A DNA stretch of 64,000 nt from a virus, in IMG/VR virus record IMGVR_UViG_3300017779_004709, positions 1-64,000 of that record; one strand, given 5' to 3'. A model generated the notes under the pieces. That model had not been told where the DNA came from. It saw only the letters and a program-made list of their open reading frames with translations, and ran no database searches. The translations under genes and the position numbers were made by a program. Positions 32,242-64,000 of the stretch are shown one piece after another. Every line of letters begins with the position of its first letter. Positions within the stretch are counted from its first letter, which is position 1.

Positions 32242-32271
32242 AAAAAAACTTAAAAAAAGTGAAAAAAACAC

Positions 32272-32300
32272 TTGACTTTTACAAAAATTATTCGTAAGAT
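32272..32300 (+). promoter_or_regulatory. Sigma-70-like promoter P3
   Basis: TTGACT (32272-32277), 17-bp spacer, TAAGAT (32295-32300), then CAAATATAA. It precedes a 30-residue membrane peptide gene. Confidence 0.8.
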
Positions 32301-32323
32301 CAAATATAATCAAAGGGAATTAA

Positions 32324-32416: not shown

Positions 32417-32444
32417 ATTATTTTGAAAATAATGAAAAAAAGAC

Positions 32445-32474
32445 TTGACTTATATACACTTTTTGTTGTAAGAT
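32445..32474 (+). promoter_or_regulatory. Sigma-70-like promoter P4
   Basis: TTGACT (32445-32450), 18-bp spacer, TAAGAT (32469-32474), then CAGGTATGA. It precedes the AAA+ ATPase gene with a 50-nt leader. Confidence 0.85.
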
Positions 32475-32525
32475 CAGGTATGAGAAATGAGAGATTAACT
32501 AACTTAATAAAGGGAAAAAAAAGTT

Positions 32526-35508: not shown

Positions 35509-35509
35509 A

Positions 35510-35587
35510 ATGACATACGAAATAGTAGTAAGTTACTCTACTGAAAACACTACCCAGCTATACAAGTATTATTACTGGGAAGAATAA
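35510..35587 (+). CDS. Possible 25-residue peptide
   Basis: A 25-codon reading frame with ATG 35510 right after the nuclease stop and 'gagg' 9 nt upstream. It is rich in Tyr and Thr. The next gene starts 2 nt after its stop, which supports translation; size alone keeps confidence low. Confidence 0.35.
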   Translation: MTYEIVVSYSTENTTQLYKYYYWEE

Positions 35588-35589
35588 AA

Positions 35590-35736
35590 ATGAATAAGTG
35601 GGATAGAGTAGAGAAGAAACCAAAAAGAATTAAGTATACCAAACAAGATGAACTTTTTGATTATCTAAAAATGGGATTAATTATTTTGGTGGGATATCTA
35701 TTCTTCCACTTTATAATAATGGGATGGACATTATGA
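35590..35736 (+). CDS. Small single-span membrane protein
   Basis: A 48-residue protein. Residues 1-27 are basic and soluble, residues 28-48 hydrophobic (MGLIILVGYLFFHFIIMGWTL), consistent with one transmembrane helix at the C-terminus. Its stop overlaps the next ATG by 4 nt (ATGA). The function is unknown. Confidence 0.5.
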   Translation: MNKWDRVEKKPKRIKYTKQDELFDYLKMGLIILVGYLFFHFIIMGWTL

Positions 35737-35900
35737 AATATAAGGTTATAAAAGACTATCCAACAGCAAATGGTATTCTTTATAAAGATGAGTTAGTTAA
35801 TGAAGCAGGTAACTCTACTTTAAAGGGGCATATCAGAGTTAAGGATAATATGGGCCGAATTTGGTTCGTACCGAAACAAACAATAAAAAAAATAAAATAG
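35733..35900 (+). CDS. Small hypothetical protein
   Basis: A 55-residue protein overlapping the membrane peptide gene by 4 nt. It has a beta-rich pattern ('YKVIKDYPTANGILYKDELV', 'RVKDNMGRIWFVPKQTI') like a small SH3-type barrel. It is followed by a terminator-like hairpin, ending this gene block. Confidence 0.5.
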   Translation: MKYKVIKDYPTANGILYKDELVNEAGNSTLKGHIRVKDNMGRIWFVPKQTIKKIK

Positions 35901-35903
35901 CAT

Positions 35904-35929
35904 AAAAAACCTATCGTTTGGGATTTTTT
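35904..35929 (+). terminator. A-run/T-run hairpin terminator
   Basis: AAAAAACC (35904-35911) pairs with GG...TTTTTT (35921-35929) with a small bulge, giving a U-run-ended hairpin 4 nt after the last small gene. It separates this block from the gene-free RNA region. Confidence 0.55.
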
Positions 35930-35952
35930 GTGTATATATATATTATGTCTTT

Positions 35953-36523
35953 CGGGACAAAAGTTTTTTGACAAATTGAAAATGGAAAGTAGAGAGACTA
36001 ATTATCTCTCTATGGGATTGACCGAACAATGAGTGACTTCGAAGCTCATAAGGTAATCCGCTCTTAGACTCGTGGTGAGTTGGTATTCGGGTAAATGTTC
36101 AAAATACCTTGCGACAGCATTAAGAGAATGTACTTTCAGATAAAATTAAGAACGCGATTCTTAGACCTTGTTATGGGTAAGGGTAAAACCGAAATCCCAT
36201 CTTGTGACCGAATAAACTAAACTCAGAGAGTTAAGGTAATGGCACAGAGGTTGTACTCACTTTGACGATGACTAACCATCATTGAGGAGAACCAAAGTAA
36301 CTTTTGGGTGTTAGGTACAAGGTAAAAAAAATCTGAGTCTGAAAGTTGTAGGTATTCGCAAATCCTACATCCCCAAATTTTCATTTTTGGAAGGTATCTT
36401 TACAGATTGAAAAGATGAGAAGGGTGTTATTGTATTCCCTAACTTTCCATTTATTTAGGTGGTGAGGCTTTCTTACATATACCCGATAATTTTAATTATC
36501 TAAAACTCACCACCTTTTTTTTT
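35953..36523 (+). ncRNA. Candidate large structured RNA, ~570 nt
   Basis: The 732-nt stretch 35901-36632 has no credible gene. AAATGGAAAGT (35980-35990) is perfectly complementary to ACTTTCCATTT (36442-36452), closing a 451-nt domain. Inside are many local stems: 35990-35997/36005-36012, 36029-36033/36045-36049, 36061-36066/36121-36126 enclosing 36082-36087/36103-36108, 36147-36152/36158-36163, 36173-36177/36196-36200, 36220-36224/36228-36232 and 36348-36352/36364-36368. A module TGACCGAA-hairpin-AAGGTAAT occurs twice. Three hand-counted 60-nt rows are 38-43% G+C, above nearby genes. A possible promoter TTGGGA (35918-35923) - 17 bp - TATTAT (35941-35946) lies upstream; the 3' end is a T9 terminator. 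The 5' end is uncertain. No match to RNase P, tmRNA or group I intron cores was seen. Confidence 0.65.
36457..36523 (+). terminator. Strong double-hairpin terminator of the RNA
   Basis: AGGTGGTGAG (36457-36466) pairs perfectly with CTCACCACCT (36506-36515), followed by a run of nine T (36515-36523). Inside, GATAAT (36485-36490) pairs with ATTATC (36495-36500). The T-run lies only on the + strand side, which fixes the direction of transcription. Confidence 0.9.
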
Positions 36524-36538
36524 AGCAAAAAATTTGTG

Positions 36539-36632
36539 TTGTTTTTAAAACAAACCAATACTTATAGTTGTACAGAAAAATATGTACAATTACAAAATAA
36601 CAAATAAACATAAACAAATAAGGAGATAACAA
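36539..36632 (+). promoter_or_regulatory. SSB gene promoter/leader with possible autoregulatory hairpin
   Basis: A candidate promoter TTGTTT (36539-36544) - 18 bp - TATAGT (36563-36568) is followed by TTGTAC (36568-36573) and GTACAA (36584-36589), an inverted repeat. The rest of the leader is A-rich and unstructured up to 'aaggag' before ATG. T4 gene 32 represses its own translation by binding an A/U-rich leader after a folded element, so a similar control is plausible. Confidence 0.45.
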
Positions 36633-37403
36633 ATGGATATTGAAGCCGTAAGAAAGCGACTAAACCAGTTACAAACCTCAACTACAAGAACAACAAACTT
36701 GTGGAAACCTCAACCAGGAAAGACACAAATCCGTCTTTTACCTTACAAACTAAATCAAGAAGTTCCTTTTATCGAACTATTCTTTCATTATGATTTAGGT
36801 GGAAAGTCTTATCTTTCACCAATCTCATTTGGTAGACCAGATCCGATTGAAGAATTTGCTGAAAAACTAAAGTCAAGTGGAAATCGTGAAGATTGGAGAC
36901 TTGGTAAGAAGTTAGAAGCAAAACTCAGAACTTTTGCACCAGTTTGTGTTCGTGGTGAAGAAAACCAAGGCTCTAAGTTTTGGGGATTTGGTAAAACCGT
37001 ATATCAAGAACTACTATCAATTATAGCAGATCCTGATTATGGTGATATTAGTGATCCAGTTAATGGACGCGATGTAGTGGTTGAATTCCTAACAGCTGAA
37101 GAAACAGGAGCGTCGTTTCTTAAGACTAACATCCGTGTTAAACCAAACCAAACACCAGTTACAGAAGATAAAGCAGTTTTATCTACATTACTTGATGACC
37201 AAAAAGATATCCGTGAGGTATATAATGAGTTAAGTTATGATGAACTTGCAGAAGCTTTACAAGATTGGTTAAACCCAAGTGAAGATGGTGAAGATAAAGG
37301 CTCAGACAATTCCGTACCAGCATCAACAACAAAGAAATTAGAAAGTGCAGTAACAAACACTTCTAATGTTAGTGATGCTTTTGATGACCTGTTTAATAAA
37401 TAG
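36633..37403 (+). CDS. Single-stranded DNA-binding protein (gp32-like)
   Basis: A 256-residue protein matching T4 gp32 in plan. An N-terminal helical stretch with basic residues (LBD-like) is followed by the core: 'LWKPQPGKTQIRLLPY', 'PFIELFFHYDLGGKSYLSP', 'FAPVCVRGEENQGSKFWGFGKTVYQELL'. An acidic, Ser-rich tail ends in 'SDAFDDLFNK'. The zinc ligands of T4 gp32 are not evident. The protein coats ssDNA and recruits UvsX and the polymerase. The next gene is uvsX-like, as expected for a replication-recombination operon. Ribosome site 'aaggag'. Confidence 0.9.
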   Translation: MDIEAVRKRLNQLQTSTTRTTNLWKPQPGKTQIRLLPYKLNQEVPFIELFFHYDLGGKSYLSPISFGRPDPIEEFAEKLKSSGNREDWRLGKKLEAKLRTFAPVCVRGEENQGSKFWGFGKTVYQELLSIIADPDYGDISDPVNGRDVVVEFLTAEETGASFLKTNIRVKPNQTPVTEDKAVLSTLLDDQKDIREVYNELSYDELAEALQDWLNPSEDGEDKGSDNSVPASTTKKLESAVTNTSNVSDAFDDLFNK

Positions 37404-63461: not shown

Positions 63462-63462
63462 A

Positions 63463-64000
63463 ATGAATTATAAAAAAATTCCTGATAACGATAATGCTAT
63501 AATGATAGATGGAAAAGTCGTGATGTCATTTGATCCACGATACAAAGAATATCTGAAATGGAAAAATGATAATCCAGAACTTGAAGAGCAATTAGTTGAT
63601 GAATTAGATTTAAAGATAGGTATAGCTAAACGATATAATAATGGTGCACCACATAAAGAGGATTCACCATTACAAAAGTTATTTTCTCATAGTGTTCAAG
63701 TTTGGACTTGGTATGACAAGGGTGGTAATTTAATTTTAAAGTCTGAAATGCAAAGGGATGTAAATCATGGAAAGCAATATGCATATTTCTCCAATGGTAA
63801 TCTTAAATCTGAAATAGAATACATCGAAGGTAAGAAGAATGGTAAGTTTATCGAATGGAATTCTGAAAAAGTAAAAATTATGGAAGGGGAATATAAAAAT
63901 GAAAAACGAGTGGGTGAGTGGTTGTTTAATTATGACTCTGGTAAGCCAAAATGGATAGGTCAGTATAAAAATGATGTTATAGTTGAGGAATTGATACAAT
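63463..64000 (+). CDS. Second MORN-repeat protein, cut by window end
   Basis: The frame opens at ATG 63463 and stays open to the last base, so the 3' end lies outside the window. The first 75 residues are a non-repeat domain ('DNAIMIDGKVVMSFDPRYKEYLKWK'); after about residue 88 come MORN units ('WYDKGGNLILKSEM', 'FSNGNLKSEIEYIEGKKNGKFIEW', 'GEYKNEKRVGEWLFNYDSGK'). It is a tandem relative of the preceding gene with a different N-terminal part. Confidence 0.75.
   Translation, partial: MNYKKIPDNDNAIMIDGKVVMSFDPRYKEYLKWKNDNPELEEQLVDELDLKIGIAKRYNNGAPHKEDSPLQKLFSHSVQVWTWYDKGGNLILKSEMQRDVNHGKQYAYFSNGNLKSEIEYIEGKKNGKFIEWNSEKVKIMEGEYKNEKRVGEWLFNYDSGKPKWIGQYKNDVIVEELIQ

Follow-up and report, generated by a model that had tools for sequence, protein, structure and literature searches.

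The stretch of virus DNA analyzed here (64,000 nt, hereafter the window) is predicted to encode a structured RNA, spanning approximately positions 35946–36523, whose 3′ part is manA RNA (RF01745). What is new, judged from sequence comparison, is an expanded manA architecture and its arrangement as an apparent separate transcription unit, and not a wholly new RNA family. The features of the RNA and its neighbor are listed in Table 1.

Table 1. Predicted features of the expanded manA RNA locus (window coordinates; percentages refer to alignment cells that pair)
Feature	Position	Strand	Basis or remark
Promoter-like AT-rich box (TGTGTATATATATATTATG), putative promoter	35929..35947	+	just upstream of RNA
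5′ hairpin P1 (TGTC..GACA), putative transcript start	35946..35959	+	by eye; weak
Linker AAGTTTTTTGA	35961..35971	+	GTTTTTTGA nearly invariant in 44-row alignment
Closing helix P2, 5′ strand	35977..35983	+	partner 36377-36383; register in window uncertain
Hairpin P3, in place of manA first hairpin (copy 1)	35989..36013	+	99.3% paired; 4/7 pairs change on both sides
GGGAU, manA outer helix 5′ strand	36014..36018	+	with AUCCC 36369-36373; 100% paired (n = 44); 2/5 both-sided
Copy 1 core motif, UGACCGAAyAA-hairpin-UAAGGUAAU	36019..36057	+	Rfam manA match in L191; R1 match in 7 relatives
P6 arm of 5′ extension	36061..36126	+	helix 195-199:275-279; 5/5 pairs change on both sides
Long-range helix CUUUCAG:CUGAAAG, 5′ strand	36133..36139	+	with 36339-36345; 91.5% paired; 6/7 both-sided
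Pseudoknot PK1	36154..36159	+	with terminal hairpin loop 36354-36359; 89.6% paired; 2/6 both-sided
manA RNA, copy 2 of core	36172..36373	+	RF01745, 67.7 bits
Copy 2 core motif, UGACCGAAUAAACU-hairpin-UAAGGUAAU	36205..36240	+	motif comparison
Pseudoknot PK2, loop CUCAGA	36222..36227	+	with UCUGAG 36332-36337; 100% paired (n = 44); 2/6 both-sided
Terminal hairpin of manA core	36348..36368	+	100% paired; 2/4 pairs change on both sides
Exchangeable 3′ hairpin module (TGGAAGGT..ACTTTCCA)	36388..36449	+	8-9 bp in 11/11 aligned sequences
Intrinsic terminator GGTGGTGAG..CTCACCACC-T9, putative RNA 3′ end	36458..36523	+	terminator before gp32 in 42/43 sequences
Promoter-like sequence of gp32	36558..36573	+	by eye; past RNA terminator
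gp32-like single-stranded-DNA-binding protein, neighbor outside RNA	36633..37403	+	PF08804 E 3.8e-11; PHROG 1192, 224

A preliminary description made from the sequence alone had proposed a large structured noncoding RNA of about 570 nt in a 732-nt gene-free gap (35901–36632). That proposal is supported: covariation is strong, the 44 aligned sequences show no sign of a hidden conserved ORF, and a promoter-like box and the described T9 terminator are present on the + strand. The longest stop-free runs in these sequences have a median of 62 codons against a shuffled median of 59, with 4 of 44 above the shuffled 95% point of 92. The + strand of 35953–36523 also folds at −148 kcal/mol (z = −3.39), beating 100 of 100 dinucleotide shuffles. 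The gap is indeed the largest between + strand ORFs of at least 50 aa in the 64-kb window; the next gaps measure 539 nt at the window end (63462–64000), 215 nt (35509–35723, containing shorter ORFs), and 181 nt. Neither the reported G+C contrast nor the reported closing stem survived. The region has 36.4% G+C against 36.3% in gp32 and 36.0% in uvsX, and low G+C near it is limited to the small gene at 35724–35900 (30.5%). The 11-bp complement between 35980–35990 and 36442–36452 exists but is weak evidence, since 69 of 500 dinucleotide shuffles of this 732-nt stretch contain a distant perfect complement of 11 bp or more. Nor is it conserved. The comparison covered the window and 10 relatives, which are the 14 sequences with the 3′ module less three near-copies: the match is 11 bp in the window alone, 8 bp in 4, and 5–7 bp in 6. 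In all 11, its 3′ strand pairs locally instead, with 36388–36395, over 8–9 bp.

A cmscan search of the whole window returned a single match at the gathering threshold, manA RNA, covering the full model (positions 1–192) and exceeding the cut-off of 55.2 bits. It is the sole manA match within the 91,360-base virus record, which is possibly a fragment. By the preliminary description's own rule, a match to a known family makes the core described rather than new. The other families named there found no support: GOLLD, ROOL, HEARO, group I/II introns, and RNase P are absent from the five Rfam matches up to E 10, and tmRNA was ruled out because neither ARAGORN nor Rfam gave a match in the window. 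GOLLD and ROOL are large ornate RNAs in phage genomes; the RNA described here is likewise a large ornate phage RNA, and as compared by Rfam alone, it matches neither. The wcaG, manA, and abiF RNAs lie within about 800 nt of each other in cyanophage S-CREM1 (Table 4 of Zheng et al. 2023), which gave rise to the idea of wcaG as the 5′ domain. This was ruled out, as Rfam found no wcaG match in the window or in 20 loci.

We collected relatives from viral contigs by several routes. A manA-core pattern gave at least 120 stretches; of 20 submitted to Rfam, 19 scored 152–197 bits (cyanophage-type manA) and the remaining one (L008) 73 bits. The pattern TGACCGAAYAN{4,30}TAAGGTAAT, taken from a motif present twice in the window RNA, gave 101 stretches (a complete listing), many of which carry both motif copies, spaced about 185–195 nt. 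A scan for gp32 homologues added the best 80 of at least 599 loci, 79 of the 80 being new. Before alignment, we left out L129, L140–L142, L185, L190, and L198, which match the pattern and are other than this RNA, as well as L117 as unrelated. A profile of the RNA matched over its full length in 104 loci, from which we kept a non-redundant set of 44 rows, the window plus 43 relatives. In 123 loci the match extends into the 3′ part of the profile; these comprise 6 core-only cyanophage matches and 117 loci with the RNA (78 distinct sequences including the window). In the reverse profile search, too, cyanophage manA was matched over the core only. When RF01745 was searched in 11 other records, 7 matched at E ≤ 0.001: four of these exceed the cut-off, and the other three score 53.1 bits. 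The four records lacking a match include L224, in which the RNA is absent, and two named phages retrieved because of their gp32. Microcystis phage Mel-JY01 and Flavobacterium phage immuto_3-5A have gaps of 107–116 nt upstream of gp32 and no manA match in their records. A blastn search of the stretch against named phages and a search of genome contigs with a DNA pattern of copy 1 gave no match.

The core of the window RNA shares with RF01745 the internal loop CUGAAUAA-hairpin-UAAGGUGAU, the terminal GGUA..AAUCC hairpin, the multi-branch arms, and an outer GGGA:UCCC helix. It departs from the model in several respects. The outer helix GGGAG:CUCCC is altered, in that the corresponding window strand, GGGAU, lies ~190 nt upstream, and the Rfam alignment of the window leaves both outer-helix strands as gaps. 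The arm guagcgac..gucgcu (approximately model 140–160) has five pairs flagged as non-pairing in the window; in relatives, its bases pair instead in PK2 and in a long-range helix that is missing from the Rfam model and present in the window clade. Finally, the window RNA is about 570 nt long with a terminator, whereas manA is about 190 nt, and it adds a 5′ copy of the first third. Since not all Rfam manA helices are found, we file the RNA as a variant rather than a plain manA member. The manA figure of Weinberg et al. (2010) carries the label “pseudoknot?”, and manA is one of the RNAs for which a 2020 method paper (PMC7657543) notes that covarying pairs are absent from the database structure.

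The 5′ extension of roughly 190 nt contains, judging by the order and placement of its elements, a degenerate duplicate of the first third of manA. Its order, hairpin–GGGAU–UGACCGAAyAA-hairpin-UAAGGUAAU, matches that of the manA first third, hairpin–GGGAG–UGACUGAAUAA-hairpin-UAAGGUGAU. The hairpin stems within the core motif vary among GAG/CTC, GGG/CCC, and GTG/CAC across relatives, and in L191 the Rfam model aligns its first hairpin with P3. A second Rfam manA match was found in 2 of the 11 records, at 37 and 28.4 bits, overlapping the first by about 30 nt, and isolated 5′ stretches matched at 25.9 bits (L191) and 16.3 bits (L164). The window's own copy 1 gave no Rfam match up to E 10. We also built a model (R1) of the 5′ third of cyanophage manA from 36 of 68 distinct sequences. 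In the 377,180 bases of the window and 43 loci, R1 has 21 matches, 14 at copy 2, 7 at copy 1, and none elsewhere. The matches are individually weak (E 0.037–0.92 overall and 0.17–0.84 at copy 1 in the 7 relatives), and their evidential weight is in their placement, not in single E-values. A GGGAG strand is missing from the 3′ copy. Its place is taken in all 44 sequences by GGGAU in the 5′ copy, which pairs with the AUCCC that ends the 3′ copy; the two copies would therefore close into a single fold, with a 7-bp long-range helix and two pseudoknots as additional ties.

Covarying stems were indeed found among the homologues. RNAalifold on the 44-row alignment gave 75 pairs, 54 of which change on both sides. 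Against a tree-based null of 40 simulations, in our own implementation modelled on R-scape and not R-scape itself, 24 column pairs reached E ≤ 0.05. Four of these (260:278, 196:217, 215:260, and 215:224) are not complementary, pairing in 39–68% of rows, and 218:244 and 220:245 fall outside the final structure. Three groups of covarying columns pointed to contacts missed by RNAalifold, namely, the 7-bp long-range helix, PK1, and PK2. With these added and the RNAalifold pair 201:214 omitted, the final structure has 93 pairs in 20 helices, with 97.4% of 4066 cells paired and 64 pairs changing on both sides over the 44 sequences, as counted on the same alignment that was used to choose the structure. 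Both-sided change occurs in 693 cells versus 187 when shuffled, and pairing falls to 36–45% when partners are slid by 1–3 columns. Taken by themselves, the three added helices are paired in 93.7% of cells and show both-sided change in 107 cells, versus 26 when shuffled. Further pair types were not above shuffles, either for the 93 pairs (143 versus 138.4, with 57 of 500 shuffles as high) or for the three added helices (22 versus 22.1). PK1 is the weakest of the three, with one of its six pairs mismatched in the window; PK2 occurs as CUCAGA:UCUGAG, CUUGGA:UCCAAG, and CUCUGA:UCAGAG. A closing helix (P2) outside GGGAU:AUCCC is supported, although its register in the window is uncertain. Over the 44 sequences, its mean best run is 7.98 Watson-Crick pairs versus 4.67 with letters shuffled (maximum of 200: 5.16), and swapping the 3′ strands between sequences lowers it to a mean of 6.92 (maximum 7.43). 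The consensus with pseudoknots should be good enough for structure work and better searches.

In 42 of 43 sequences, including the window, a terminator separates the RNA core from gp32. Two kinds with no sequence likeness are used: GGGTTC..GAACCC with its variants, which covaries by eye, and the GGTGGTGAG..CTCACCACC of the window. The stem begins 17–32 nt past the core in 27 of 43, beyond the closing helix, and we saw by eye no alternative anti-terminator pairing between core and terminator. Upstream of the RNA, a box matching TATA[TCA][AT]TA[TA], a pattern composed after inspecting the sequences, is present in 38 of 44 (including the window) versus 5.0 expected in mononucleotide shuffles. With a terminator in 42/43 and a promoter-like box in 38/44, the RNA appears to be transcribed as a separate unit, which sets it apart from most cyanophage manA. 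The same box pattern occurs upstream of gp32 in 19 of 43 versus 5.5 expected, and the window is not among the 19. For the P1 hairpin, a scan run without a null detected a stem of 6 bp or more, counting G-U pairs, no more than 7 nt before the next element in 39 of 43, and the best stem of that scan in the window differs from TGTC..GACA. Part of the 3′ module (36415–36465), besides forming a hairpin, is readable as a 16-residue peptide, MRRVLLYSLTFHLFRW, and similar readings are seen by eye in relatives.

The gene downstream is gp32, found on the same strand within 1500 nt in 115 of the 117 RNA loci; in the other two, the contigs end. Because 28 of the 117 loci were reached via gp32, this association is partly by design; the rest were reached via RNA patterns. 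A gp32 tree was built from 70 sequences, of which 29 carry the RNA and 41 have more than 700 nt upstream and no match; the loci from the gp32 scan are a sample, the best 80 of at least 599. On this tree, where “no match” means none upstream of gp32 and the RNA may lie elsewhere in the genome, presence of the RNA requires at least 7 gains or losses (6–7 across bootstrap trees), and well-supported branches force 4 of these. One relative with a 93% identical gp32 (L222) lacks window positions 35946–36457 and keeps both flanks, i.e., it is an empty site, with the promoter-like box and terminator retained despite the lost RNA body. Another (L221) has a different short element of about 75 nt in place of the body, ~88% like one found right behind gp32 in L267, L276, L280, L283, and L290. 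The 3′ module of the window (36388–36449) likewise has kin behind gp32, and its loop occurs there in relatives without the module at the RNA locus. From these comparisons, the site upstream of gp32 looks like a slot for swapped structured elements.

Relatives carry two kinds of small, apparently structured element immediately after the gp32 stop codon, one in L288 (3780–3840) and L150 (1490–1555) and the other in L290, L283, L280, L276, and L267; each has kin at the RNA locus, either in the window or in L221. Among the best 80 of at least 599 gp32 loci, seven have a Ro60-like protein upstream of gp32 (L224:1282–2892, L223, and L227–L231), three full length and four cut by contig ends. The L224 protein has TROVE and Ro60 vWA domains, and in several of these loci an ORF that appears cold-shock-like by eye lies between the Ro60-like gene and gp32. 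YrlA/Y RNAs are associated with Ro60. We ruled out a Y RNA for a phage Ro60 protein, as the RNA and the TROVE gene do not co-occur: none of the seven loci has an RNA match, and the window's 91,360-base record, possibly a fragment, has no TROVE match.

Weinberg et al. (2010) described manA, found in marine metagenomes, cyanophages, and two gamma-proteobacteria and located in possible 5′ UTRs, as a candidate riboswitch, and both that study and Rfam class it as cis-regulatory. Zheng et al. (2023) report one in S-CREM1 and describe its regulatory role as still awaiting verification. In the openly readable literature we searched, we found no description of an expanded or gp32-linked manA, and we therefore take the expanded form as new. 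Among the cyanophage manA matches listed, a promoter-like sequence (TTGAC-N16-20-TAW) lies just upstream in 86 of 97. Of 105 such matches, 64 are followed by an ORF within 80 nt, 23 by a terminator before any ORF, and 18 by neither. The terminator count is probably low, since some loci with the ACCTAAGATGCAA..GGGCAGATGGT element described below were not scored. The next ATG ORF belongs to the gp32 cluster in 25 of 99 and to the transaldolase cluster in 13 of 99, named by cluster representatives, which include gp32, transaldolase, Hsp20, and endonuclease V or 2OG-Fe(II) oxygenase. In the window clade, the terminator parts the RNA from gp32 in 42/43, which is not the 5′ leader of the Rfam type. 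An enlarged, closed manA core cut off from the next gene by a terminator offers a direct test of the cis-regulatory label, and the association with gp32 in two distant T4-like phage groups narrows the search for a manA role.

We favor a separate, trans-acting RNA over a gp32 attenuator, and we consider it somewhat probable that the RNA works in this way rather than as a gp32 leader. Transcription would start at the promoter at about 35929–35947 and run through the 5′ hairpin and the body to the terminator, ending near 36523; the resulting RNA of about 570 nt would be made during infection as its own transcript and would act in trans, with a phage or host protein as its probable binding partner. 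The terminator and promoter-like box point to this reading, as do the distance to gp32 (in 10 of 43, over 350 nt separate its start from the RNA core), a terminator stem placed beyond the closing helix, and the exchange of the body, absent from L222 with box and terminator kept and replaced in L221. A cis role would fit the position of gp32 behind the RNA in 115/117 loci and again behind cyanophage manA (25/99 of the matches listed), and the layout of RNA plus terminator is also that of an attenuator, in which the folded RNA would sense a ligand or the gp32 protein and decide passage through the terminator into gp32. Cyanophage manA, moreover, reaches an ORF without a prior terminator in 64/105 of the matches listed. 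Against the trans-acting reading also stands the fact that no more than 19 of 43 sequences show the promoter-like box before gp32. An attenuator nevertheless seems unlikely, given two terminators of unrelated sequence, no alternative core-terminator pairing (by eye only), a promoter-like box of gp32's own in 19/43, the greater gp32 distance in some relatives, and near relatives that do without the RNA. The T4 gene 32 translational operator is a structured RNA in the gp32 leader, close to the start codon; it shares with the present RNA the place upstream of gp32, but in the window clade a terminator intervenes.

The remaining readings concern what the fold itself may do. We know of no ligand for manA, and the genes beside cyanophage manA differ widely by cluster representative, which argues against one metabolite; a riboswitch-like or ribozyme domain with the same small-molecule or catalytic role in cyanophage leaders and in the window clade is thus quite improbable. 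Its compact fold with two pseudoknots and a long-range helix, its invariant internal-loop letters, and the place of manA among the riboswitch candidates of Weinberg et al. (2010) are nonetheless what such a domain would look like. A leader or spacer of unusual stability and nothing more, which neither acts in trans nor senses but serves, e.g., mRNA protection or timing, would agree with the at least 7 gains or losses and with the swapped and missing bodies of L221 and L222, but we regard it as very unlikely, since covariation and invariant positions over a body of roughly 400 nt far exceed the needs of stability alone. Extending the trans-acting reading, we tentatively propose as one possible view that manA is a phage RNA module able to be free and trans-acting, not a leader family at heart, which here may have grown by internal duplication, with its own promoter and terminator, and been kept beside gp32, working with a protein partner in phage replication or takeover.

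Several smaller observations accompany these results. A conserved hairpin, ACCTAAGATGCAA..GGGCAGATGGT, often followed by a T-run, lies behind manA in 29 of 105 cyanophage loci among the matches listed (e.g., L011, L013, L021, L033, L038, and L044) and was found nowhere else in the loci examined; in four loci where it is visible by eye (L011, L014, L021, and L038), it has no Rfam match. Cyanophage manA also lies within 150 nt of tRNA genes, downstream in 3 of 103 and upstream in 3 of 106 among the matches listed (L037, L003, L095, L024, L098, and L005). In the window itself, two similar promoter-like repeats (CTTGACTT-N-GTAAGATC) precede small ORFs at 32270–32310 and 32440–32480, and their kin occur in several copies in relatives.
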